From Bacillota bacterium (GTDB lineage Bacteria; Bacillota; Clostridia; Acetivibrionales; JAMNXU01): a stretch of DNA of 64,000 bases. Location: the NCBI GenBank assembly GCA_023623175.1, contig JAMNXU010000039.1:1-64000 (forward strand). Direction: 5' to 3'. A model generated the notes under the pieces. The model had not been told where the DNA came from and made no database searches. It saw nothing but the letters and a program-made list of their open reading frames with translations. A program made the translations under genes and the position numbers. This document shows positions 1,340 to 41,670 of the stretch, piece by piece. Every line of letters starts with the position of its first letter. Positions within the stretch are counted from its first letter, which is position 1.

Positions 1340-3502
1340 ATGAACCACGGGGAAGTTTTGTGGATATATAATAAATATGAAGACAGTGAAGTGGAGGAAC
1401 TATCACGCCGCCTGGGCATATCACGCCTGCTGGCAAAGGTGTTCCTGAGCCGCGGTATAAGGGATGGAGAATACATAGGAAAATTTCTCAATCCATCTAT
1501 CGAAAGCTTGCACGATCCATTCCTGCTCAGGGATATGGACCGGGCGGTGGAAAGGGTAGCAAGGGCCGTAAAGTCCGGAGAAAAGATACTCATTTACGGG
1601 GATTACGACGTGGACGGGATTACGAGCACGTCAATGCTGTATGATTTTCTTTCGGGACTCGGAGCCCAGGTGGAATACTACATACCCGACAGGTTCGAGG
1701 ACGGTTACGGGCTTTCCGCCGGCGCAATCGAAAAATTCATTGCAAGAAGGCCTTCGCTCGTAATAACGGTGGATTGCGGTATAACATCGGTAGATGAAGT
1801 GGAAATGCTGAAGGAAAACGGCATGGATGTTGTCATTGCCGACCACCATGAATGCAGGGAAATGCTTCCTGCGGCATGGGCAGTGGTAAATCCCAACAGG
1901 CCCGACTGCAGCTACCCGTTCAGGGAGCTCGCGGGAGTGGGTGTTGTTTACAAGCTCATTTGCGGCATATGTGCCAGGCTCGGCCTTGGGGATGCGCATC
2001 TGAGGTACCTGGACCTCGTAGCCCTGGGTACCGTGGCCGACGTGGTAAGTCTGACCGATGAAAACCGTGTAGTCGTAAAATATGGACTCGAAATGCTCCA
2101 GGGAACCGTCAGGCCCGGTTTGAAGGCTCTTATCGAAGTTTCGGGGCTGAAAAATAAAAAGATCGACTCATGGAGTATTGGTTTTGTACTGGCACCGCGA
2201 ATCAACGCGGCAGGACGTATGGGCGATGCATCAAGGGCGGTAAGGCTTCTTACGACGCGCGATAAAGAAGAGGCTTATAAAATTGCGGCTGAGCTCAACG
2301 AGGAGAACCGGTACCGCCAGGAAGTGGAAAACGACATACTGAACCAGGCGTCGGGTATTATAGATTCCGACGAATCCCTTAAAAAAAGCAGGGTGCTTGT
2401 TGTAGCCGGTGAAGGCTGGCATGAAGGAATAATTGGCATAGTGGCTTCCAAGCTGATGGAAAGGTACTATAAACCGGTTATCCTGATTTCAGTGGAAGGC
2501 GAATACGGCAAGGGTTCCGGGCGCAGTCCCGAAGGTTTCAACCTTTTCAAGGCGCTCTGCAGTTGCGGGCAGTTGCTCGAAAGATTCGGGGGGCATGAGT
2601 TTGCGGCCGGGCTGTCGATACGCGCTGATATGATTGACGGGTTCAGGCAGGCTGTTAACTCTTACGCCGATTCGGTAACGGAAGGGAAGGAACTTGTGCC
2701 CAGTCTCAAAATTGACGTTGTGCTTGATAAGGAAGATATAACTGTTGAAAACGTCAGGGAGCTTGAACTGCTTTCTCCTTTCGGCGCAGGCAACCCAAGC
2801 CCGGTATTTGCCTACAGGAGAATTGGCGTCCGGGATATAAGGACGGTGGGTGACAACAGGCATTTGAAGATGACGCTCCAGGACGGGGAATTCTGCATTG
2901 ACGCGATAGGTTTCAACATGGGAGATCTGTGCCGGAATTTTGGCGAAGCGGATTTGCTCGACGTGGCCTGTTCACTGCAGATAAATTCCTGGAACAACGC
3001 CGAAACGGTCCAGCTTAATTTGAAATGTATAAAACTGTGCGAGGAATGGCTCGAAAAAAACAGGTTCTATTATATGCTGGACAAGTCTATTGTTTTCAAA
3101 GATACAAATGACTATAATAAAGATATTACAAATGTTACAAAGGTTTTGAGTTTTGAAGATATAGACGGGCTCATTCCTGAAAGAAGCGACCTGGCAGCCC
3201 TGTACCGGTATCTGAGGGCGGCCGGCGGGTTGCCGGTCAGGATTGACGACCTGTTTTCCTTTTCGCGAAGGATTTCAAGGAGTTTGAGGCTCGACTTCAA
3301 TTTCTTCAAGTTGAAAAAAAGCCTTGAGATATTCCAGGAACTGGGACTGACCGAGAATGAGCCTTACGGCGAATACGGGATGATTGTGAAGTTCAACCAG
3401 GGCGCCAGGAAGACTGACCTTGAAAAGTCCGTGCTGTATAAGACTCTTCAGGGACTCAAAAACCGCTGTGCTGAAGCTAAGCGGGTTGCGGAAGCTAAAT
3501 AG
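1340..3502 (+). CDS. recJ: single-stranded-DNA-specific exonuclease RecJ
   Basis: DHH/DHHA1 motifs (YGDYDVDGITSTSML, VITVDCG, IADHHE, GSGRSPEGFNLFKAL, GGHEFAAGLS). Confidence 0.95.
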   Translation: MNHGEVLWIYNKYEDSEVEELSRRLGISRLLAKVFLSRGIRDGEYIGKFLNPSIESLHDPFLLRDMDRAVERVARAVKSGEKILIYGDYDVDGITSTSMLYDFLSGLGAQVEYYIPDRFEDGYGLSAGAIEKFIARRPSLVITVDCGITSVDEVEMLKENGMDVVIADHHECREMLPAAWAVVNPNRPDCSYPFRELAGVGVVYKLICGICARLGLGDAHLRYLDLVALGTVADVVSLTDENRVVVKYGLEMLQGTVRPGLKALIEVSGLKNKKIDSWSIGFVLAPRINAAGRMGDASRAVRLLTTRDKEEAYKIAAELNEENRYRQEVENDILNQASGIIDSDESLKKSRVLVVAGEGWHEGIIGIVASKLMERYYKPVILISVEGEYGKGSGRSPEGFNLFKALCSCGQLLERFGGHEFAAGLSIRADMIDGFRQAVNSYADSVTEGKELVPSLKIDVVLDKEDITVENVRELELLSPFGAGNPSPVFAYRRIGVRDIRTVGDNRHLKMTLQDGEFCIDAIGFNMGDLCRNFGEADLLDVACSLQINSWNNAETVQLNLKCIKLCEEWLEKNRFYYMLDKSIVFKDTNDYNKDITNVTKVLSFEDIDGLIPERSDLAALYRYLRAAGGLPVRIDDLFSFSRRISRSLRLDFNFFKLKKSLEIFQELGLTENEPYGEYGMIVKFNQGARKTDLEKSVLYKTLQGLKNRCAEAKRVAEAK

Positions 3503-3546
3503 ATGTGAAAGCTAAAACAAACAAGAAGTAAACCGGAGGAATTAAT

Positions 3547-4065
3547 ATGGATTTGAAAAACAAACTCAGGCATGTTATGGATTTTCCGAAAAAAGGCATT
3601 GATTTTATTGACATTACCACGGTGCTGCAGGATGCCGGCGCATTTAAGCAGGCCCTTGACGAAATGAAACAGATGGCGCTGTCTTATGGCGATTTTGACA
3701 TAATTGTCGGAACAGAATCAAGGGGTTTTGTATTCGGCGCTCCCCTGGCCTATGCCTGCGGCAAGGGTTTTGTGCCGGTTCGAAAGCAGGGAAAGCTTCC
3801 GTACAGGACTATCAGGCAGGAATATGATCTGGAATACGGCACGGATGTCCTCGAAATACACGAGGATGCCATAAAACCCGGGCAGAAGGTTGTCATCGTG
3901 GATGACCTGCTTGCCACGGGAGGAACTACGCTTACAAATATAAAGCTCGTGGAAAAGCTCGGAGGACAGGTGCTCGGACTGGTGTTTTTCATAGAACTCA
4001 GCTACCTTAACGGCAGGGAGAAACTCAAGGGCTACGACGTGAAATCTGTCGTTCAGTTTGATTAA
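3547..4065 (+). CDS. apt: adenine phosphoribosyltransferase
   Basis: PRPP motif VVIVDDLLATGGT; GTESRGFVFGAPLAY; SD accggagg. Confidence 0.97.
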   Translation: MDLKNKLRHVMDFPKKGIDFIDITTVLQDAGAFKQALDEMKQMALSYGDFDIIVGTESRGFVFGAPLAYACGKGFVPVRKQGKLPYRTIRQEYDLEYGTDVLEIHEDAIKPGQKVVIVDDLLATGGTTLTNIKLVEKLGGQVLGLVFFIELSYLNGREKLKGYDVKSVVQFD

Positions 4066-4094: not shown

Positions 4095-6269
4095 ATGGCT
4101 GACGGGTTTGAACGCTTGGTTAACAGAATAAAAAGTTATAATCCCGAGTGCGACCTCAGCTTGATCAAAAAGGCGTATGACCTGTCCAAGACGGCTCATA
4201 ACGGCCAGCAAAGGGAGTCAGGAGAGCCTTTTATTATCCATCCCGTCGAAGTGGCCATTATTCTGACTGAGCTTGAAGTTGACTGTACCACGATTATTGC
4301 TGCCTTGCTGCATGATACGATCGAGGACACAACGTGCACCTACGAAAAGATCAGGGAGGAATTCGGCGATGAAGTCGCATTGCTCGTGGACGGAGTAACC
4401 AAGCTGAAGAAAATCCCCTACACACCAAAGGAGGATCAGCAGGCTGAAAACTTAAGGAAAATGTTCCTCGCGATGTCCAAGGACATCAGGGTCATATTGA
4501 TCAAGCTTGCAGACAGGCTTCACAACATGCGCACACTCAAGTACAAGAGCCCGGACAAGCAAGTTGAAAATGCGAAGGAAACACTTGAGATATATGCTCC
4601 CCTGGCCCACAGGCTCGGTATATCCAAGATCAAGTGGGAACTCGAGGACATTTCCCTGAGGTATATAGATCCCGAAGGTTACTACGACCTTGTGAATAAA
4701 ATTGCCTCCAAGAGAAGGGAAAGAGAGGCATATATAAAGCAGATTGTTGAGACCCTCGAGGAAAAAATCAGGGAAATGGGCATTGAACACGCCCATATTG
4801 AAGGAAGACCCAAGCATTTTTACAGCATATACAAAAAGATGAAGGAACAGAACAAGACGCTGGACCAGATATATGACCTTTTCGCGGTGCGCATCATAGT
4901 CAATTCAGTGAAAGACTGCTATGCCGTCCTTGGTCTTGTTCATGAGCTTTACAAGCCCCTTCCGGGCAGGTTCAAAGATTATATAGCGATGCCCAAGCCC
5001 AACATGTACCAGTCGCTGCACAATACGCTCATCGGCCCCGGGGGGCAGCCCTTCGAGGTGCAGATAAGGACCTGGGAGATGCACAGGATCGCGGAAGTAG
5101 GTATAGCAGCCCACTGGAAGTACAAGGAAGGGCACGGGCAGTTAAGCGAACTTGACAACAAGCTCGCATGGCTCAGGCAGCTTTTGGAATGGCACAAGGA
5201 AATGAAGGATGCCCGGGAATTTGTAGAAACTCTTAAAGTGGACCTTTTTTCCGACGAAGTTTTCGTGTTCACTCCCAAGGGCGACGTGATCAACCTGCCC
5301 GTCGGTTCAACGCCCATTGATTTTGCCTATGCAATACACAGCGCCATAGGCAACAGCATGATGGGCGCAAAGGTCAACGGCAGGATAGTACCGCTGGATT
5401 ATGAGCTGAAAAACGGGGATATAGTAGAAATATTAACCTCTGCCAGCGTCCACGGGCCGAGCCGCGACTGGCTCAAAATAGTCAAGAGCTCCCAGGCGAG
5501 AAGCAAGATAAACCAGTGGTTCAAGAAGGAAAGGCGCGAGGAGAACATCGCGCGCGGAAAGGAACTGGTGGATAAGGAGCTCAAAAAGCAGGGATTCACG
5601 GCTGCCCAGCTTTTCAGGAACGAATGGCTGGAGCCCATTTTGAAAAAATACACGTTCAACACCGTTGACGACCTCTATGCGGCGATAGGTTACGGAGCCA
5701 TCACGGCGAACAAGGTCATTTCAAGGCTCAGGGAAGAGTACAGGAAGAATGTTAAACCCGAGGAGCAGGTTGAAACCGTCCAGGACGCCGCTCGGAAACA
5801 GGAAAAGAAACCGAGGCATACGCCCGAAAAGGGTGTTATCGTCAAGGGAATAGAAAACTGCCTTGTGCGCCTGTCAAGATGCTGCAACCCCGTGCCGGGG
5901 GATGAAATAATCGGGTATATCACGAGGGGCAGGGGCGTTTCCGTTCACAGGGCCGACTGCCTTAACCTTAAAAACCTCGCGGACGAAGACAGGCTGATCG
6001 AGGTCAGCTGGCATATGGCCAAGAATGTCGCCTACCAGGCGGATATAACGGTTATGGCCAATGACAGGACAGCCCTGCTCATGGAAGTCACCAACACCAT
6101 AGGAGAGGCAAAGGTGCCTCTGAAGGCCATAAATGCCAGGACGACCAAGGAGCATATAGCCATCATGAATATAACGCTGGAAATAACCGATACGGAACAG
6201 CTGGAGCGCATAATTAAAAAGGTGAAAAAAATAGACAGCGTATTTGAGGTAACAAGAAACAAGGTGTGA
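4095..6269 (+). CDS. relA: bifunctional (p)ppGpp synthetase/hydrolase RelA/SpoT
   Basis: HD domain (AALLHDTIEDT), synthetase, TGS and ACT domains; length ~724 aa; ATG at 4095. Confidence 0.96.
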   Translation: MADGFERLVNRIKSYNPECDLSLIKKAYDLSKTAHNGQQRESGEPFIIHPVEVAIILTELEVDCTTIIAALLHDTIEDTTCTYEKIREEFGDEVALLVDGVTKLKKIPYTPKEDQQAENLRKMFLAMSKDIRVILIKLADRLHNMRTLKYKSPDKQVENAKETLEIYAPLAHRLGISKIKWELEDISLRYIDPEGYYDLVNKIASKRREREAYIKQIVETLEEKIREMGIEHAHIEGRPKHFYSIYKKMKEQNKTLDQIYDLFAVRIIVNSVKDCYAVLGLVHELYKPLPGRFKDYIAMPKPNMYQSLHNTLIGPGGQPFEVQIRTWEMHRIAEVGIAAHWKYKEGHGQLSELDNKLAWLRQLLEWHKEMKDAREFVETLKVDLFSDEVFVFTPKGDVINLPVGSTPIDFAYAIHSAIGNSMMGAKVNGRIVPLDYELKNGDIVEILTSASVHGPSRDWLKIVKSSQARSKINQWFKKERREENIARGKELVDKELKKQGFTAAQLFRNEWLEPILKKYTFNTVDDLYAAIGYGAITANKVISRLREEYRKNVKPEEQVETVQDAARKQEKKPRHTPEKGVIVKGIENCLVRLSRCCNPVPGDEIIGYITRGRGVSVHRADCLNLKNLADEDRLIEVSWHMAKNVAYQADITVMANDRTALLMEVTNTIGEAKVPLKAINARTTKEHIAIMNITLEITDTEQLERIIKKVKKIDSVFEVTRNKV

Positions 6270-7404: not shown

Positions 7405-8879
7405 TTGTAGTAATTTTGGACGGACATGAATTTGAAAACGAGGCTCGGGACGTTATCAGGCTGTTTTTTCCGGAAGGCGAAATATGTATTGCACATGGCA
7501 ATCCAGGGGATAGTGTCTCCGGGATTTTATTTTATACTTCGGTAAAGAAAGATGGCGCGGGAACAATGGTCAGCTGCGGCATAAAAACCGGCGAATATGA
7601 GAGGACCGTATCGGCTCCCGCCAGTGCCTCGTATCCACCCGTGGATATGAAAAGCAAAAAGACGGTGAAATGGGAACTTAAAAGGCAGCTGTATCACCTG
7701 CTGTCTGAATATACGGGATCGGAGCAGCCCTGGGGAATGCTCACGGGCATCAGGCCGGCCAAAATAGTGCACGAAATGCTCGACAATAACGCTGACTTTT
7801 CCGAGATCTGGGACTTCCTGGGGAATTACTGCCGCGTTTCCGATGAAAAAATCGAGCTCGTCCGGAAGGTGACAGAAACCCAGAGGAAAATTTTCGATAT
7901 AACGGCGGACAACATGATAAGCCTCTACATAGGCATACCTTTCTGCAAAACGCGCTGCCTTTACTGCTCGTTTATTTCCGATACCGTGGCAAGGTGCTCG
8001 CACCTGCTGGAAAGGTATATGCAGGCGCTAAGGCATGAGCTTGAAGGAATCGGCAGAATCATTGAGAAAAAGGGGCTTGTACTGCAGAATATCTACATCG
8101 GGGGAGGACCCCCCACCTCCATAGGGGCTTCGCTGCTTGATGAACTTCTTGTCCATATCGGGAAAGTGTTCAACCTTGATGAACTCATGGAATTTACTCT
8201 CGAAGCCGGTCGCCCTGACAGCATAAATGAAAGTATCCTCGATGTGGTCAGGAAAAGCAGGGTGAACAGAATCAGCATCAATCCCCAGTCAATGAATGAC
8301 GAGACGCTCAGGACGATCGGAAGAAACCATACGGCAAAGGAAGTTGAAAGGGCTTTTTTCCTCGCAAGGGAGATGGGTTTCAACAATATAAACATGGATG
8401 TAATAGCGGGACTGCCCGGTGAAACCATCGGGCATTTCAGATACACGATGGACAAAATTGCCGAACTCGGGCCCGAGAGCCTGACAGTGCATACTCTTTC
8501 GATCAAGAGGGGATCCGAACTCCACGAAAGAAAAGTCGATTTCGCATCCCTTGATGCGGAAGCCGCCGAAGCCATGGTTGAAGAGGGAAGGAGATACGCC
8601 GAGCTCATGGGCATGCATCCCTATTACCTGTACAGGCAGAAATACATCCTCGGCAACCTCGAGAATACGGGGTATTGCAAGCCGGGGTATGAGAGCATAT
8701 ACAATGTGCAGATCATGGAAGAAAGGCAGACTATCATCGCGGCGGGGGCAAATGGCGTGACAAAAGCTTACTTTCCGAGCGAGAACAGAATAGAGAGGGC
8801 ATTTAATGTCAAAAATCCGGAAGAATATATTAAAAGGATAGATGAAATGCTCGGGCGCAAAGAGGCAATTCTGTCTTGA
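7401..8879 (+). CDS. hemZ: radical SAM coproporphyrinogen dehydrogenase HemZ
   Basis: IGIPFCKTRCLYCSF radical SAM CxxxCxxC; position after dtd/MBL; HemZ N-terminal domain. Confidence 0.88.
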   Translation: MIVVILDGHEFENEARDVIRLFFPEGEICIAHGNPGDSVSGILFYTSVKKDGAGTMVSCGIKTGEYERTVSAPASASYPPVDMKSKKTVKWELKRQLYHLLSEYTGSEQPWGMLTGIRPAKIVHEMLDNNADFSEIWDFLGNYCRVSDEKIELVRKVTETQRKIFDITADNMISLYIGIPFCKTRCLYCSFISDTVARCSHLLERYMQALRHELEGIGRIIEKKGLVLQNIYIGGGPPTSIGASLLDELLVHIGKVFNLDELMEFTLEAGRPDSINESILDVVRKSRVNRISINPQSMNDETLRTIGRNHTAKEVERAFFLAREMGFNNINMDVIAGLPGETIGHFRYTMDKIAELGPESLTVHTLSIKRGSELHERKVDFASLDAEAAEAMVEEGRRYAELMGMHPYYLYRQKYILGNLENTGYCKPGYESIYNVQIMEERQTIIAAGANGVTKAYFPSENRIERAFNVKNPEEYIKRIDEMLGRKEAILS

Positions 8880-8904
8880 CATGCCCAGAATTGTGTAGTA
8901 AATT
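8876..8904 (+). promoter_or_regulatory. sigma-A-type promoter for the IMPDH gene, overlapping the hemZ stop codon
   Basis: TTGACA (8876-8881) - N17 - TAAATT; TGA of hemZ lies inside the -35 box. Confidence 0.55.
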
Positions 8905-8923
8905 ATATAGAAATTTCTATATA
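8904..8923. promoter_or_regulatory. 20-bp perfect palindrome TATATAGAAATTTCTATATA, operator candidate
   Basis: perfect inverted repeat immediately downstream of the candidate -10. Confidence 0.5.
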
Positions 8924-9025
8924 TTGAACGCAAAGTCAGCGAAAATCGGCGGATAAACATCTGATTCAGTTGTTTGAAGCAGGTTGTACCATAATGTTCA
9001 TTAACGGAAACGGAGGAGGAGGCAA

Positions 9026-10534
9026 ATGGCTTTTTATTATAACGAACCTTCAAGGACGTTCAGCGAATATCTTTTGATTCCGAACCTTACAAGGAAGGAA
9101 TGCGTACCGGAAAACGTGGACCTCAGGACACCGATAGTCAGGTTCAGGAAGGGCGAAAAGCCGCTTTTCATGATAAACCTGCCCGTTGCTTCCGCCATAA
9201 TGCAGGCAGTGTCGGACCATAACATGGCCATTGCCCTGGCAAGATGCGGAGGCATTTCTTTTATTTATTGTTCCCAGCCAATAGAAAGCCAGGCTGAAAT
9301 GGTAAGGAAAGTAAAAAAATACAAGGCAGGTTTTGTTGTCAGCGACTCAAGCCTGACACCTGAACACACCCTCAGGGATGTAATCGCGCTGACGAGAAAA
9401 ACAGGTCATACAACGATAGCCATTACGGAGGACGGAACGCCGACGGGCAAACTCGAGGGAATCTTGACGAGCAGGGATTACCGCCCCGACAAGACGCCGC
9501 TCGAAACCAAGGTAAAAGAGCTTATGACTCCTTTTTCGCAGCTGATTTACGGCATGGAGGGCATCACGCTCAGCGAGGCCAATGACATGATATGGAGGCA
9601 CAAGCTCAATTGTCTTCCCATCATTGACAAGAACCGCAACCTGAAATACCTGGTGTTCAGAAAAGACTACAAGGAACACAAGGAAAATCCCAACGAGCTC
9701 GTGGACAGCGAAAAGAGGCTCAGGGTCGGCGCGGGCATCAATACGCGCGACTATACCGAAAGGGTACCGGCGCTGGTTGAAGCCGGCGCGGACATACTCT
9801 GCATAGATTCCTCCGATGGTTACAGCGAATGGCAGAAGGATACCCTTGAATGGATCAAGAATAAGTATAACGGGGAAGTAAAAGTCGGGGCGGGCAACGT
9901 GGTTGACCGCGAGGGATTTTTATACCTGGCCGAAGCCGGGGCGGATTTCGTCAAGGTGGGCATCGGCGGCGGTTCCATTTGTATAACGCGCGAACAGAAA
10001 GGTATAGGAAGGGGCCAGGCGACGGCACTCATTGAAGTAGCCCAGGCCAGGGACGAATACTTCGAAAAGACCGGCATTTATGTGCCGATATGCTCCGATG
10101 GCGGTATCGTGTTTGACTACCATATGGTCCTTGCCCTTGCAATGGGCGCGGATTTCCTGATGCTGGGCCGCTACTTCGCAAGATTTGACGAAAGCCCGAC
10201 AAAGAAGCTGCTAATAGGCGGCAACTATTACAAGGAATACTGGGGCGAGGGTTCCAACCGCGCGAGAAACTGGCAGAGGTACGACCTGGGCGGCGAAGAC
10301 AGGCTGAGCTTTGAAGAGGGCGTGGATTCATACGTTCCCTATGCGGGCAAGCTAAAGGACAACCTCGATATAACCATATACAAGATTAAATCGACCATGT
10401 GCAACTGCGGCGCCCTGTCAATCCCGGAGCTGCAGAAAACCGCGAGGATAACGCTCGTGTCTTCGACAAGCATAGTCGAGGGCGGAGTGCACGATGTAAT
10501 ACCCAAGGACAGCGGCGTAAACAATCCCCTGTAG
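9026..10534 (+). CDS. guaB: IMP dehydrogenase (CBS-domain containing)
   Basis: [64 protein letters not shown] region. Confidence 0.88.
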
Positions 10535-35904: not shown

Positions 35905-38544
35905 ATGACGAAATATGTCTATCTCTTCAGCGAAGGCAATGCCTCGATGAGGAATCTTCTGGGCGGAAAAGGCGCGAATCTGGCTGAAATGACCGGTTTG
36001 GGGCTCCCGGTGCCAAGAGGTTTTACTGTTACAACTGAAGCGTGCACAAGGTATTATGCCGACGGGCAGACTATTGCACAGGAAATACAGGATCAGATTT
36101 ATGAGGCTCTGGCAAAAACCGAGCAAATTGTCGGAAAGAAATTCGGCGATCCCTCGAATCCGCTGCTTGTATCAGTGCGTTCCGGAGCGAGGGCTTCCAT
36201 GCCGGGCATGATGGATACAATTCTTAACCTGGGTATAAATGACGAGGTTGTGGAAGGCCTTGCGAAGCTGACCAACAATCCCAGGTTTGCTTATGACAGC
36301 TACAGAAGATTCATACAGATGTTCAGCGACGTCGTAATGGAAATCGAAAGGCTCAAGTTCGAAAATATTCTGGATGATGTGAAGCGTGCAAAGAACGTGG
36401 AACACGACACGGAACTCACGGTCGACGACCTGAAGGAAGTTGTGCGCAGGTACAAGGAATTATTCAGGAAGGAGAAAGGTTTTGATTTTCCGCAGGATCC
36501 CAGGGTACAGCTGATGGAAGCCGTGAAGGCCGTTTTCCGATCCTGGGAAAATCCGCGCGCAGTCGTTTACAGGAGGCTTAATGACATCCCGAGCGACTGG
36601 GGTACTGCTGTAAACGTGCAGGAAATGGTCTTCGGAAACATGGGCAATGACTCAGGTACGGGCGTTGCATTCACCAGGAATCCTTCCACGGGTGAAAAGA
36701 AGCTTTACGGAGAATTCCTGATGAATGCCCAGGGCGAAGATGTCGTCGCAGGTATAAGGACGCCCCAGTCTATTGATCAGCTCAGGGAGATCAACCCTGA
36801 AATCTACAACCAGTTCGTGGAAATAGCAGAAAAACTGGAAAAGCATTACAGGGACATGCAGGACATGGAGTTTACCATTGAAAGAGGCAAGCTGTTCATG
36901 CTCCAGACCAGGAACGGCAAAAGAACTGCTGCAGCGGCGCTCAAGATTGCCGTAGACCTCGTCAGGGAAGGCATGATAACCAAGGAAGAGGCCGTTCTGA
37001 AGGTCGATCCGAAACAGCTTGATACGCTGCTCCATCCGACCTTTGATCCCGCGGCTTTGAAAAAGGCCGTGCCCATTGCGAAGGGACTGCCGGCTTCACC
37101 CGGAGCCGCAACGGGCAAGATTTACTTTACGGCCGAGGATGCCGTCAATGCGGTCAAGAACGGCGAAAGCAAGGTTATCCTTGTAAGGCTTGAAACTTCA
37201 CCGGAAGATATCGAGGGAATGCATGTTTCCCAGGGTATACTCACCGGACGCGGCGGCATGACCTCCCACGCTGCGGTTGTAGCGCGCGGAATGGGTACCT
37301 GCTGCGTTGCGGGCTGCGGTGAAATCAGGATCAATGAAGAAGAGAAATACTTCATAGACAAGAACGGCAAGAAATACGTTGAAGGCGACTGGATTTCCCT
37401 TGACGGTTCCACGGGCAACGTGTACGGCGAACAGCTGCCTACGGTCGCGCCTGAAATGGTCGGCGATTTTGCGACCCTCATGAGCTGGGCCGATGAAATC
37501 AGGGTTCTCAAGGTCAGGACCAATGCCGACACGCCGGCAGACGCAGCCCAGGCTTACAAGTTCGGTGCCGAAGGTATCGGTCTTTGCCGTACGGAGCATA
37601 TGTTCTTCGAACCTGACAGAATTCCCGCAATGAGGGAAATGATTGTTGCAAGGTCCCTGGAACAAAGAAAGAAAGCCCTTGAAAAACTGCTGCCGATGCA
37701 GAGGAGCGACTTTGAAAAGATATTTACTGAAATGAAGGGTCATCCCGTTACAATCAGGTTCCTGGATCCCCCGCTTCATGAATTCCTGCCCCAGGACGAT
37801 GAAGACATAGCGGCTCTTGCAAAGGAAATGGGCATGAGTTATGAAGATTTGAAGGCAGTGGTCAATGACCTGCATGAATTCAACCCGATGATGGGCCACA
37901 GGGGATGCCGCCTTGCGGTTTCCTATCCTGAAATAGCCGAAATGCAGACAAGGGCTGTCATTGAGGCTGCCATCAATGTAAACAGGAAAGGCATGAATGT
38001 CGTTCCTGAAATCATGATCCCGCTCGTGGGCGACGTCAAGGAACTGAAATATATCAAGGATGTTGTGGTAAGGACTGCTGACGAGATAATCAGGAATTCC
38101 GGAATCAAGCTCGAATACAAGGTCGGAACAATGATAGAGATTCCGAGAGCTGCAATTACCGCCGATGAAATCGCACGGGAAGCCGAGTTCTTCTCCTTCG
38201 GAACCAACGACCTGACCCAGATGACATTCGGATTCAGCCGTGACGACGCAGGCAAGTTCCTCGAGGAATATTACAGCAAGAAGATCTACGAATTCGATCC
38301 GTTTGAGAAGCTTGACCAGAACGGCGTAGGCAAGCTGATGGAAATGGCTGTAAAACTCGGAAAATCGACAAGACCGGATATCAAGCTCGGTATCTGCGGA
38401 GAACACGGCGGAGATCCTTCGTCGGTGGAATTCTGCCACAGGATTGGCCTCGATTATGTCTCCTGCTCGCCGTACCGCGTGCCGATTGCAAGGCTTGCGG
38501 CTGCACAGGCCCAGGTTAATTATCCGAGGGAGAAAAAACAATAA
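35905..38544 (+). CDS. ppdK: pyruvate, phosphate dikinase
   Basis: GGKGANLAEMTGLGLPVPRGFTVTTEAC, GGMTSHAAVVARGMGTCCVAGC, GICGEHGGDPSS. Confidence 0.98.
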   Translation: MTKYVYLFSEGNASMRNLLGGKGANLAEMTGLGLPVPRGFTVTTEACTRYYADGQTIAQEIQDQIYEALAKTEQIVGKKFGDPSNPLLVSVRSGARASMPGMMDTILNLGINDEVVEGLAKLTNNPRFAYDSYRRFIQMFSDVVMEIERLKFENILDDVKRAKNVEHDTELTVDDLKEVVRRYKELFRKEKGFDFPQDPRVQLMEAVKAVFRSWENPRAVVYRRLNDIPSDWGTAVNVQEMVFGNMGNDSGTGVAFTRNPSTGEKKLYGEFLMNAQGEDVVAGIRTPQSIDQLREINPEIYNQFVEIAEKLEKHYRDMQDMEFTIERGKLFMLQTRNGKRTAAAALKIAVDLVREGMITKEEAVLKVDPKQLDTLLHPTFDPAALKKAVPIAKGLPASPGAATGKIYFTAEDAVNAVKNGESKVILVRLETSPEDIEGMHVSQGILTGRGGMTSHAAVVARGMGTCCVAGCGEIRINEEEKYFIDKNGKKYVEGDWISLDGSTGNVYGEQLPTVAPEMVGDFATLMSWADEIRVLKVRTNADTPADAAQAYKFGAEGIGLCRTEHMFFEPDRIPAMREMIVARSLEQRKKALEKLLPMQRSDFEKIFTEMKGHPVTIRFLDPPLHEFLPQDDEDIAALAKEMGMSYEDLKAVVNDLHEFNPMMGHRGCRLAVSYPEIAEMQTRAVIEAAINVNRKGMNVVPEIMIPLVGDVKELKYIKDVVVRTADEIIRNSGIKLEYKVGTMIEIPRAAITADEIAREAEFFSFGTNDLTQMTFGFSRDDAGKFLEEYYSKKIYEFDPFEKLDQNGVGKLMEMAVKLGKSTRPDIKLGICGEHGGDPSSVEFCHRIGLDYVSCSPYRVPIARLAAAQAQVNYPREKKQ

Positions 38545-38640: not shown

Positions 38641-38873
38641 AAAAAAATATAAATGCAGAGTCTTTATTTTTAACAAATGCTTAATTTAAGAAGCTCGTGA
38701 AATTCCGGAATTTATGCTATATTGCTGAAGACGGGATTGATCCGAAAGAGAAGATTGATACAGAAAAACATCCTGGTTGCCATGCATCCTGGATAAAATA
38801 AAGTTCTGAATTTTCTTTAAATTTCCCAATGGAATTTAATTTGATTGCACTTTATTAGCGGGAGGTGAAAAAA

Positions 38874-40421
38874 GTGGACTATGGGCGCATAACCGGCATG
38901 CTTGACAGGACTTTCGCGTGGTCGCTTGCCCGTACCTTTTCCCGGGAAGAGGCGGAGGAGCTGACACAGGAAATCCTGTTCCAGGCAATCAAAAGCATCG
39001 GAGAGCTTCGTGACGACAGCAAATTTGAACCGTGGTTCTGGCGCCTTGCCGAAATAACGTTGAAAGTTTTCAAGCGAGGCAGGGCAAAAAATCGCAGTAC
39101 CATGTCCTTTTATGAAGTAACGTACCTGGCTTTTGAAGATGAATACAATTTTGAAGCCGACGAGGAATATCAGAATCTGCGCCGGAGTATAGCCCAGCTG
39201 TCCGCAGTTTACCGGGATATTATCGTGATGCATTATTATGACGGTTTATCCTGCAGGGACATCTCCCAAAAGCTGGGCCTGCCCGAGGGCACGGTCACGT
39301 ACAGGCTCTCGCTGGCCAGGAACAAATTGAAAGAGAGGTGCGATCAAATGAATGAAACAGCATTAAAACCGGTAAAATTAATGATCAACATTATCGGGAG
39401 CGGCAATTACAACGGCGAAGACAGGCCATTTCCAAGCCAGTATATCAATGATGCGTTGTCGCAGAACATCCTGTGGTACTCTTACCGCGAACCCAAGACC
39501 GTGGAAGAGCTCTCTTCGATCACCGGAGTGCCGGCCTATTTCATTGAGGAAAGAATTGACAACCTCGTCCGGCGCGAAGCTGTAATCCAGCCGACGAGGA
39601 AAACAGTGCAGACCAGTTTCCTCATTTTTGACAAAGAAACAGCGGAATATGTTTTTAACAATTCAGGGGATTTTGTTTCTGCAGTGTCGGAAGATTTTTA
39701 CCGCTTGTCCGTCGAACTCACTGAAAAAATGCTGTCATCAGGACTGAAGGCTGCCAATCGTACAAGGGGCGAGATCCAATGCCTGCTTTCAGTCAGACTT
39801 CTGGAAGAATTCGCGGCAGATTACAGTCCCGTCCCATACAGGCAGCTTGAAAGGCGATATGACGGCGGAAGGTGGGATTACCTGGGATTTACTGAAGACG
39901 GAATGGCCAGAGGCAAATTATTCATCAGTATAGAAAAGAGCATGAACGGGTTTGAGGCAGGAAAGCTTGCCCATTATTCCCATCATTTCGAACCCTTTGC
40001 CTACAGGAGGATGATGTATTGCAATGAAATTGATGTTTGCGATGCTGTTCTGCGGGGACAGGAATTGACAGACAAGCAAAAGGAAATTGCCGCAGAACTC
40101 ATTGCGAACGGATACCTTTCAAGGGATGAGTCGGGCAGGATCTTATGCACCATTCCCGTGTTTACCAGGGAGCTGGATGAATTGTTTACCGCAGAGGCAA
40201 AATCAATATTTGCTGACTTCCTGCCTTTTTATGCAGAGGAAGCCGGGAAATACCTGGACGGTTTCCTGAAACTTTTCCCGAAGCATATCAGGGATAAGGC
40301 CAAATGGTTCAGTGCGTATATTTTTGTTTCATTATTCAAGGAAATTGCAAAAGACTGGCATGAAAAAGGCAGGATAAACATACCGCGCGGCGCGGTGTGC
40401 GATGTACTGGTTATGATGTAA
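38874..40421 (+). CDS. ECF-like sigma-70 family factor with ~340-aa C-terminal extension
   Basis: N-term: sigma region 2 (FSREEAEELTQEILFQAIKSIGEL) and region 4 (IVMHYYDGLSCRDISQKLGLPEGTVTYRLSLARNKLKE); then an unassigned region with wHTH-like segment (EPKTVEELSSITGVPAYFIEERIDNLVRREAV). Confidence 0.82.
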   Translation: MDYGRITGMLDRTFAWSLARTFSREEAEELTQEILFQAIKSIGELRDDSKFEPWFWRLAEITLKVFKRGRAKNRSTMSFYEVTYLAFEDEYNFEADEEYQNLRRSIAQLSAVYRDIIVMHYYDGLSCRDISQKLGLPEGTVTYRLSLARNKLKERCDQMNETALKPVKLMINIIGSGNYNGEDRPFPSQYINDALSQNILWYSYREPKTVEELSSITGVPAYFIEERIDNLVRREAVIQPTRKTVQTSFLIFDKETAEYVFNNSGDFVSAVSEDFYRLSVELTEKMLSSGLKAANRTRGEIQCLLSVRLLEEFAADYSPVPYRQLERRYDGGRWDYLGFTEDGMARGKLFISIEKSMNGFEAGKLAHYSHHFEPFAYRRMMYCNEIDVCDAVLRGQELTDKQKEIAAELIANGYLSRDESGRILCTIPVFTRELDELFTAEAKSIFADFLPFYAEEAGKYLDGFLKLFPKHIRDKAKWFSAYIFVSLFKEIAKDWHEKGRINIPRGAVCDVLVMM

Positions 40422-40433
40422 CATTTGCAGCGA

Positions 40434-40476
40434 AGGGCATTGTTCCCGGAAATCAAGGGGCAATGTCCTTTTTTAT
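40434..40476 (+). terminator. intrinsic terminator after the sigma factor gene
   Basis: GGGCATTG...CAATGTCC-TTTTTT. Confidence 0.7.
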
Positions 40477-40653: not shown

Positions 40654-41301
40654 ATGAGCTCAAAGGATCTTTCGCTGATTTATGTATGGGATGCCTACTG
40701 CGGATGGTGCTACGGCTTTTCGAAAAGCCTTCGCATTTTTCATAAAAACCATCCTGAACTCCCGCTGACAGTATTGTCTGGAGGCCTGTTCCTGGGAGCC
40801 AAGAAGCTGCCCATTTCCTCTTTTCCAAGCCTCCAGGAAGGCTGGAAGAGAATCAGCCAGCTTACGGGCGCGGTGTTTGGGGAGCCTTATCTCAGGCTTC
40901 TTGAAGAAGGCTCCTTTGTAATGGATTCAGAAGCGGCTGCGAAAGGTTTTGCAGCGCTGCGCCACTTTGCTCCGGAGCGTGCCTATGATTTGGCCGCAGC
41001 CATGCAGCACGCGTTTTATTTTGAAGGAAAAAGCCTCAGCAGCCCGGAAACTTACCGCGAGATCGCCATTGCCCATAATCTTGACCCGGAAAAAGTACTT
41101 GCCCGGTTTGGGGATGAAGTTACCACCGGGGAAGCCTATGAGGATTTTGCAAGGGTCAAACAGCTTGGCGTCGACAGCTATCCAACGCTTCTGCTGCAAA
41201 AGGACGGCGAAATTATCAGGCTTGCCGGTGGAGCCATGACCGCGGAGAAAATAGAGGACCGGCTTAAAAATATCCTGGCCGCTGAACAAAGAGCTGAATA
41301 A
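40654..41301 (+). CDS. DsbA family (thioredoxin-fold) protein
   Basis: WDAYCGWCYGFSKSL (CxxC active site), VKQLGVDSYPTLLLQ; SD aaaggag. Confidence 0.85.
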   Translation: MSSKDLSLIYVWDAYCGWCYGFSKSLRIFHKNHPELPLTVLSGGLFLGAKKLPISSFPSLQEGWKRISQLTGAVFGEPYLRLLEEGSFVMDSEAAAKGFAALRHFAPERAYDLAAAMQHAFYFEGKSLSSPETYREIAIAHNLDPEKVLARFGDEVTTGEAYEDFARVKQLGVDSYPTLLLQKDGEIIRLAGGAMTAEKIEDRLKNILAAEQRAE

Positions 41302-41330
41302 ACGGATTAATAAGCAAAAAACAGCGGTTT

Positions 41331-41402
41331 AATGAACAGCCTAATGAACAGGTTGATAAACAGCTTAATGAACAGCTTTATGAACAGCCTAAAAAACAGT
41401 TT
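41331..41402. repeat. six tandem degenerate 12-bp repeats (AATGAACAGCYT)
   Basis: aatgaacagcct/aatgaacaggtt/gataaacagctt/aatgaacagctt/tatgaacagcct/aaaaaacagttt. Confidence 0.8.
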
Positions 41403-41670
41403 ACCAGGCGGCCCAGCAAGCGGCTCAACTGGCAGTTCCGGTTACTTTTTTCATGCATTATACAAAAAACCAGGAACAAACAAAAAATATTTGACAGCTT
41501 GCAAAAAATCGATTATTCTATCATTAAGTCAGGAAACTGCAAATTTATTAATTTGATTGCAATTTTATAAATTGACTGGTACAATTTTTATAGTTGACCA
41601 ATAGTTGACCGATGCAATTTTTATAAATTGAAGCATTTCAGTAAGCGCAATTAAATAAGCTCCCTTTAAT

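Follow-up and report, generated by a model that had tools for sequence, protein, structure and literature searches.

The sigma factor gene and its surroundings

The window, a stretch of 64,000 nucleotides from the start of contig JAMNXU010000039.1 of a Bacillota bacterium (assembly GCA_023623175.1), contains a gene for an ECF-type sigma factor that carries a C-terminal extension of ~350 residues (Table 1). The gene has a strong ribosome-binding site, is preceded by a pyruvate phosphate dikinase gene and is followed by a gene for a DsbA-like thioredoxin-fold protein. A preliminary description, made from the sequence alone, had named the DsbA-like gene as the sole codirectional neighbour; this has to be corrected, since the upstream pyruvate phosphate dikinase gene is also on the forward strand. 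The same description placed a terminator before the DsbA-like gene. A hairpin followed by a T run is indeed present there, but matches of this type in the hairpin scan, this one included, occur near the chance rate. No anti-sigma gene adjoins the sigma gene, as had been stated. Between the DsbA-like gene and the next gene, identified by sequence as pyrB, lies an imperfect 12-bp tandem repeat (TTAATGAACAGC, ~6 copies) at 41329-41403.

Table 1. Features of the sigma factor locus and the paralogues in the host genome (positions in the window unless a contig is given)
Feature	Position	Strand	Remarks
Pyruvate phosphate dikinase gene, upstream neighbour	35905-38544	+	identified by sequence; ends 329 bp before the sigma gene
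-35-like block CCCAATGGA	38825..38833	+	CCAAT invariant in 8/8 clade members
-10-like block CACTTTATT	38848..38856	+	CACTTT invariant in 8/8 clade members; 14-nt spacer constant
Ribosome-binding site GGGAGGTG, strong	38860..38867	+	sequence
ECF-type sigma factor gene with ~350-residue C-terminal extension	38874..40421	+	515 aa; GTG start codon at 38874, stop codon ends at 40421
Sigma region 2, residues 16-60	38919..39053	+	Pfam PF04542; alignment to AlgU/SigW
Sigma region 4, residues 100-152	39171..39329	+	Pfam PF08281
First winged-helix-like unit, residues ~192-252	39447..39629	+	profile matches to MarR/ArsR/Rrf2 wHTH structures
Variable insert with R/Y-DGG-x-W motif, residues ~270-375	39681..39998	+	least conserved part of the extension
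Second winged-helix-like unit and subsequent helix, residues ~393-464	40050..40265	+	hhalign repeat; local AlphaFold2 pLDDT 63-82
C-terminal helical end, residues ~465-515	40266..40418	+	conserved PKH and GxIxxP motifs
Terminator-like hairpin, then T run	40455..40471	+	hairpin scan
DsbA-like thioredoxin-fold protein gene, downstream neighbour	40654-41301		CGWC active site; codirectional
Paralogue in the host genome (G000)	C5:20723-22324		545-aa frame; own ECF-type promoter; perfect palindrome GAAACCGGTTTC near +1
Paralogue in the host genome (G000)	C28:33786-35471		608-aa frame; own ECF-type promoter; perfect palindrome ATCATTCATGAATGAT near +1

The N-terminal part of the protein is an ECF-like sigma factor with regions 2 and 4, in agreement with the preliminary description. 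The NCBIfam model sigma70-ECF spans residues 15-155 with 69.6 bits (cut-off 42.9), and the Pfam model Sigma70_r4_2 scores 54.9 bits, above its cut-off, while Sigma70_r2 barely passes with 24.2 bits against a cut-off of 24.0. Regions 2 and 4 together occupy residues ~16-154, region 3 is absent and the linker is short, which is the layout of an ECF (group IV) sigma factor. The region 2.2 segment AEELTQEILFQAIKSI aligns with solved ECF sigma factors such as AlgU/SigH and SigW, indicating that the core-binding region has been kept. Hydropathy analysis gave no transmembrane helix, the 19-residue maximum being 0.65 in the window protein and at most 1.91 in its relatives. The seven cysteines are scattered over the whole ORF.

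The C-terminal extension

Residues ~160-515 contain no Pfam, NCBIfam or PDB domain above cut-off, which bears out the earlier view of a large uncharacterised extension. A Pfam search with the full protein gave a weak TrmB-type winged helix-turn-helix (wHTH) signal at residues 205-239 (E 0.046), which was not recovered when the extension was searched alone. When a profile built from 33 homologous extensions was run against the PDB, its first part gave weak matches (best E 0.003-1), mainly to wHTH proteins. These signals agree with the wHTH-like segment that had been pointed out previously; a second unit had been overlooked. In profile-profile comparison by hhalign, residues ~404-464 repeat residues ~226-286 with a probability of 95.4%, where 40 column-shuffled controls gave at most 2.2% and a reversed control 0.7%. 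The HTH of the first unit also resembles the HTH of the family's own sigma region 4 (hhalign probability 91%). AlphaFold2 modelling from an alignment of five sequences showed a helix-helix-strand-strand-helix order in the second unit, the overall models being too poor (pLDDT 39.8 for the full protein and 45.8 for the extension).

The extension is laid out as two related winged-helix-like units flanking a variable insert. The preliminary description of a helical region without SnoaL or TPR motifs holds insofar as neither family was matched, but the region is not simply helical. The poorly conserved insert is the natural candidate for a putative sensing surface.

Family and distribution

Profile searches revealed ~74 distinct relatives in Clostridia and related Firmicutes, most of them 500-660 aa long, and a peptide-pattern search of GTDB genomes yielded four close relatives. 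Among 391 Clostridia genomes, 33 gave matches to alignment A1, the weakest of them covering the sigma part only. Profile A4, which is broader, added full-length relatives from further genomes of the phylum; most of its 154 matching genomes have only ordinary short ECF sigma factors that match the first ~165 positions. With the extension as the only query, up to 11 matches per genome were obtained (in G105 and G368). An extension-only profile, run on 17 genomes or records, returned almost exclusively ORFs of 500-600 aa in which the sigma part is present as well, and the few shorter extension-only matches resemble fragments or contig ends; the extension is fused to a sigma part in essentially every relative of the genomes checked. 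The host genome itself has two paralogues, and WP_013483710.1, encoded on the 353-kb plasmid pRUMAL02 of Ruminococcus albus, is a full-length family member. About 25 family neighbourhoods were inspected by sequence, with a Pfam check on a subset. They differ from one another, and neither an anti-sigma gene nor a shared neighbour was recognised in them by eye.

Several relatives lie in rearranged loci. In Clostridiales GWF2_38_85 (L020, 5938-7884), the extension breaks off after ~420 residues and continues in frame as a segment that by eye is HsdS-like (type I restriction specificity), in a mobile-element setting; a viral contig locus (L075, 5001-6326) is similar. A ~6.1-kb near-identical tandem duplication in G071:C46 (L060), either real or an assembly artefact, holds sigma genes at 2195-3853 and 8283-9941 and also carries an XRE-type regulator and a weak NlpC/P60-like gene. 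In G368:C39 (L065), a second-extension fragment at 5239-5535 immediately upstream of a family sigma gene represents a decayed tandem paralogue. A relative from the window clade (G266:C2:310498-311997; L031/L059) has an in-frame stop near its start and an intact promoter; the stop is possibly a sequencing error or the sign of a young pseudogene.

A conserved predicted promoter upstream of the sigma genes

Comparison of upstream sequences revealed a bipartite element that is conserved throughout the family. The version of the window clade, CCCAATGRA (CCCAATRRA)-N14-CACTTTATA, ends right before the ribosome-binding site. Its invariant CCAAT and CACTTT are shared by eight members whose proteins are only ~35-65% identical, and the spacer columns of these eight are mostly variable (38-88% majority). 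The family-wide element consists of a -35 TAACC or CCAACC, a 14-nt spacer and a -10 CACTATATA, also written (C/G)ACTATATA. The bipartite motif scores more than 6 bits upstream of 73 of the 74 relatives, with an identical spacer in 59; since 2-3 of the 73 matches, at distances of over 110 nt from the estimated start, are probably unreal, about 70 of the 74 can be said to have the promoter. Classical ECF promoters have a geometry such as the TGAAAC-N16-CGTA of SigW, with which the AACC-N16-CACT of the family agrees.

The exact core CCCAAT-N17-CACTTTA was searched for in eight genomes. It occurs once per genome and at the sigma gene only in the host genome, G105, G162, G266 and G311; the sigma genes of G368 and G071 have it with one mismatch, and the contig of G069 begins inside the gene. 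An N18 version of the pattern recovered none of the promoter sites. A matrix trained with the window clade left out placed the promoters of this clade correctly (p = 5e-6 against 138 upstream regions of neighbouring genes). The corresponding value for the other family members against the 138 background regions is p = 5e-29, but these sat in the training set. Taken alone, the window promoter scores 10.4 under the leave-clade-out matrix and five of the 138 background regions score higher, which we count against it. The CAAT/CACTTT variant of the promoter coincides with one fully supported clade in the tree, as expected if promoter and sigma factor changed together, though this amounts to a single event only.

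From this conservation we strongly infer that an ECF-type promoter lies directly upstream of the gene and is recognised by the protein's own regions 2 and 4. Judged by sequence, a promoter before the own gene, one of the marks of an ECF sigma factor, is present in the large majority of the relatives, and it is very likely that the sigma factor activates its own gene. The -10 block nearly adjoins the ribosome-binding site and would leave a leader of just ~15 nt, which counts against autoregulation. The DsbA-like gene yielded no family-type promoter in the scan and no sign of sharing the sigma promoter. Neither the promoter nor the internal duplication of the extension nor the paralogues had been noticed in the preliminary description.

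Other copies of the promoter were sought in several genomes. The core was sought with one mismatch in the eight genomes and with two mismatches in the host genome, where no other gene has a convincing copy; the matches did not exceed those of a reversed-pattern control, and those inspected lie mostly inside genes (nearly all of the one-mismatch sites) or have no ORF after them. A search for AACC-N17-ACTATAT in seven genomes returned just the family's own promoters and background. On pRUMAL02, a scan of the whole plasmid found the promoter and its adjoining palindrome (see below) at the plasmid's own sigma gene only. The only candidate target is a transglutaminase-like gene in G311:C94 (L066, 4976-5954), directly before a family sigma gene, with a promoter copy CCTAACAAA-N14-GACTATACA that scores 17.9. 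A general role as target was rejected for this gene, as none of the 23 other genomes searched has a homologue.

The support for a self-promoter is conservation, and an element found before other genes in one candidate case only would also suit an operator. It might accordingly be read by another sigma factor or belong to an unrelated regulator, with no autoregulation of the gene. We consider this quite improbable, because the element has the -35/-10 geometry typical of ECF promoters, accompanies relatives in many unrelated genomes that have no neighbour in common, shifts in sequence with the sigma clade and recurs in the G311 gene beside a family member.

The conservation of promoter and ribosome-binding site also bears on whether the gene is functional at all. 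The family is patchily distributed, and some relatives have stop codons, are truncated or are fused to other genes, as would be seen if the gene were decaying or neutral and without function today. For the window gene this is highly improbable: its frame of 515 aa is intact, and purifying selection acts on sigma part and extension alike (0.12-0.26 nonsynonymous versus 0.74-0.81 synonymous differences per site).

A palindrome around the expected transcription start

Of 69 relatives, 24 carry a perfect palindrome no shorter than 12 bp, with its centre 8-17 nt past the -10, about the expected transcription start. Dinucleotide shuffles predict 0.43 such cases; in the control region, upstream of the -35, 2 of the 69 have one, and other pre-start regions have 1 in 131. 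When each cluster is reduced to one representative, a palindrome of at least 10 bp is found in 6 of 20 (shuffle mean 0.24, maximum 3 in 1000). The palindromes differ between clades and keep a constant position (TGAAAGCTTTCA, ATCATTCATGAATGAT, TTGAGTGCGCACTCAA, GAAACCGGTTTC, AATCATCGATGATT, TAATCATGATTA and others). They are spread over many deep clades of the tree, both other members of the host genome included, and the window clade is without one. It is possible that the palindrome is an operator. Its similarity between relatives, corrected for overall similarity, correlates most with the recognition segment of the first wHTH (partial 0.23) and also with the C-terminal end (0.21) and sigma region 4 (0.15).

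The number, position and phylogenetic spread of the palindromes, together with their correlation with the first wHTH helix, would fit a sigma-regulator hybrid in which the fused winged-helix units bind DNA and read the family-specific palindrome around +1. One protein would then combine the sigma factor with the repressor or specificity factor that binds its operator, and in genomes with as many as 11 paralogues, whose -35 and -10 boxes are similar, the palindrome would distinguish one promoter from another. We hold this as a tentative possibility. The window clade has no palindrome and about two thirds of the relatives lack a perfect 12-bp one; the correlation is weak and is shared by other parts of the protein; a separate repressor could occupy the palindrome; and the acidic character of the putative recognition helix (YIEE/YVEE) speaks against simple DNA binding. 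Slightly more doubtful is a scheme for the whole family, namely sigma factors with an operator module of their own. Every paralogue would have a three-part promoter, with the shared -35/-10 read by regions 2/4 and a paralogue-specific +1 palindrome read by the tandem winged-helix units, and the window clade would be derived, lacking the palindrome and bearing a new promoter sequence. Such a protein would amount to a merger of a sigma factor with a one-component repressor. Should the fused domain indeed read the palindrome, transcription initiation would here be controlled by a new architecture, which would also be a source of orthogonal sigma-promoter pairs.

The acidic helix agrees with yet another role of the extension, that of a fused anti-sigma-like or protein-interaction domain which senses no ligand and whose release depends on a second protein or on proteolysis. 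A winged helix can serve as a protein-binding module, and mechanisms of this kind have been proposed for other ECF groups with large extensions, ECF42 or the proteolysed groups, according to a review of the 2021 ECF classification (PMC8999054). For the present family we regard it as unlikely, given that no zinc-binding anti-sigma motif was noted, no transmembrane segment, TPR match or WD40 match was found, and the ~25 neighbourhoods hold no conserved partner gene.

Proposed mode of action

An autoregulated one-component ECF sigma factor is the best reading of these data, and we believe it to be probably correct. The constant fusion of extension and sigma part, the lack of a recognised anti-sigma gene in ~25 neighbourhoods and the lack of a transmembrane helix point to a cytosolic protein of the one-component type, and the purifying selection is consistent with it. 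The proposal of a one-component sigma factor in the preliminary description is therefore retained, and direct sensing of a signal by the extension, which it also suggested, is kept as a possibility. We propose that regions 2 and 4 bind the RNA polymerase core and recognise CCCAATGRA-N14-CACTTTATA ahead of the gene's own ribosome-binding site, a step for which the conservation argues strongly. The ~350-residue cytosolic extension would stand in for the anti-sigma factor and may toggle the sigma factor on and off in reaction to an intracellular ligand or partner, and the active sigma factor would boost its own synthesis.

Within bacterial signal transduction, little is understood of the branch formed by ECF sigma factors that carry fused regulatory domains. 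The family described here has many paralogues in several Clostridia, and its extension has no named domain in Pfam or NCBIfam. With a cognate promoter predicted for each clade, reporter assays that were formerly barred by the lack of a target can now be built, and the putative self-promoter gives direct experimental access to a still unstudied type of bacterial sensor.

Comparison with known ECF groups

The review of the 2021 classification counts 26 ECF groups with extensions, 15 of them unstudied, and its Table 2 lists ECF262, with the model protein SFB89493.1 of Ruminococcus albus, among the groups with an unstudied regulatory extension (PMC8999054). As far as this table entry goes, ECF262 resembles the window family in that it has a regulatory extension, lacks an anti-sigma factor and has been assigned no mechanism, and R. 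albus also hosts WP_013483710.1. The window family may be ECF262, compared by the table entry only; the R. albus family member need not be the model of the group. The suggestion of the preliminary description that this is an undescribed ECF subgroup is accordingly doubtful, given a catalogued group with an R. albus model and a family member on an R. albus plasmid.

The window protein has the fused extension of a one-component sigma factor and no anti-sigma gene in its neighbourhood. It shares with ECF41 (SigJ, Ecf41Bli) a fused C-terminal regulatory domain in place of an anti-sigma factor; the extension of ECF41 is SnoaL-like, whereas that of the window family comprises ~350 residues with winged-helix-like repeats. 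SnoaL is not among the families matched by the 33 extensions, which sets aside the SnoaL types ECF41, ECF56, ECF205, ECF294 and ECF295. ECF42 likewise has a large fused C-terminal extension and no anti-sigma factor. According to the review, the ECF42 extension is of the TPR type and accompanied by a conserved partner gene (PMC8999054), whereas the window family has neither, and the absence of TPR from the families matched by the 33 extensions argues against the ECF42 type. Fused sensory extensions are also found in ECF238 (CorE) and ECF288 (Blautia), the latter likewise from Clostridia. These extensions are cysteine-rich, unlike the window ORF with its few scattered cysteines, and the cysteine-rich types ECF238, ECF287 and ECF288 were rejected for that reason. 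The membrane-fused types ECF48, ECF52 and ECF53 were rejected on the hydropathy maxima given above. The MarR/ArsR/Rrf2 winged-helix regulators show weak profile similarity to the first extension unit (E 0.003 to 1), but they are not fused to sigma factors, and the E-values are too weak for the window family to be assigned to them.

In the literature searched, we found no description of a sigma factor fused to winged-helix domains, nor of an extension with winged-helix repeats, a self-promoter and a palindrome. An ECF sigma factor with a regulatory extension is a known kind of protein; the winged-helix-repeat extension, the predicted self-promoter and the palindrome around +1 are the new parts that this family adds to it.
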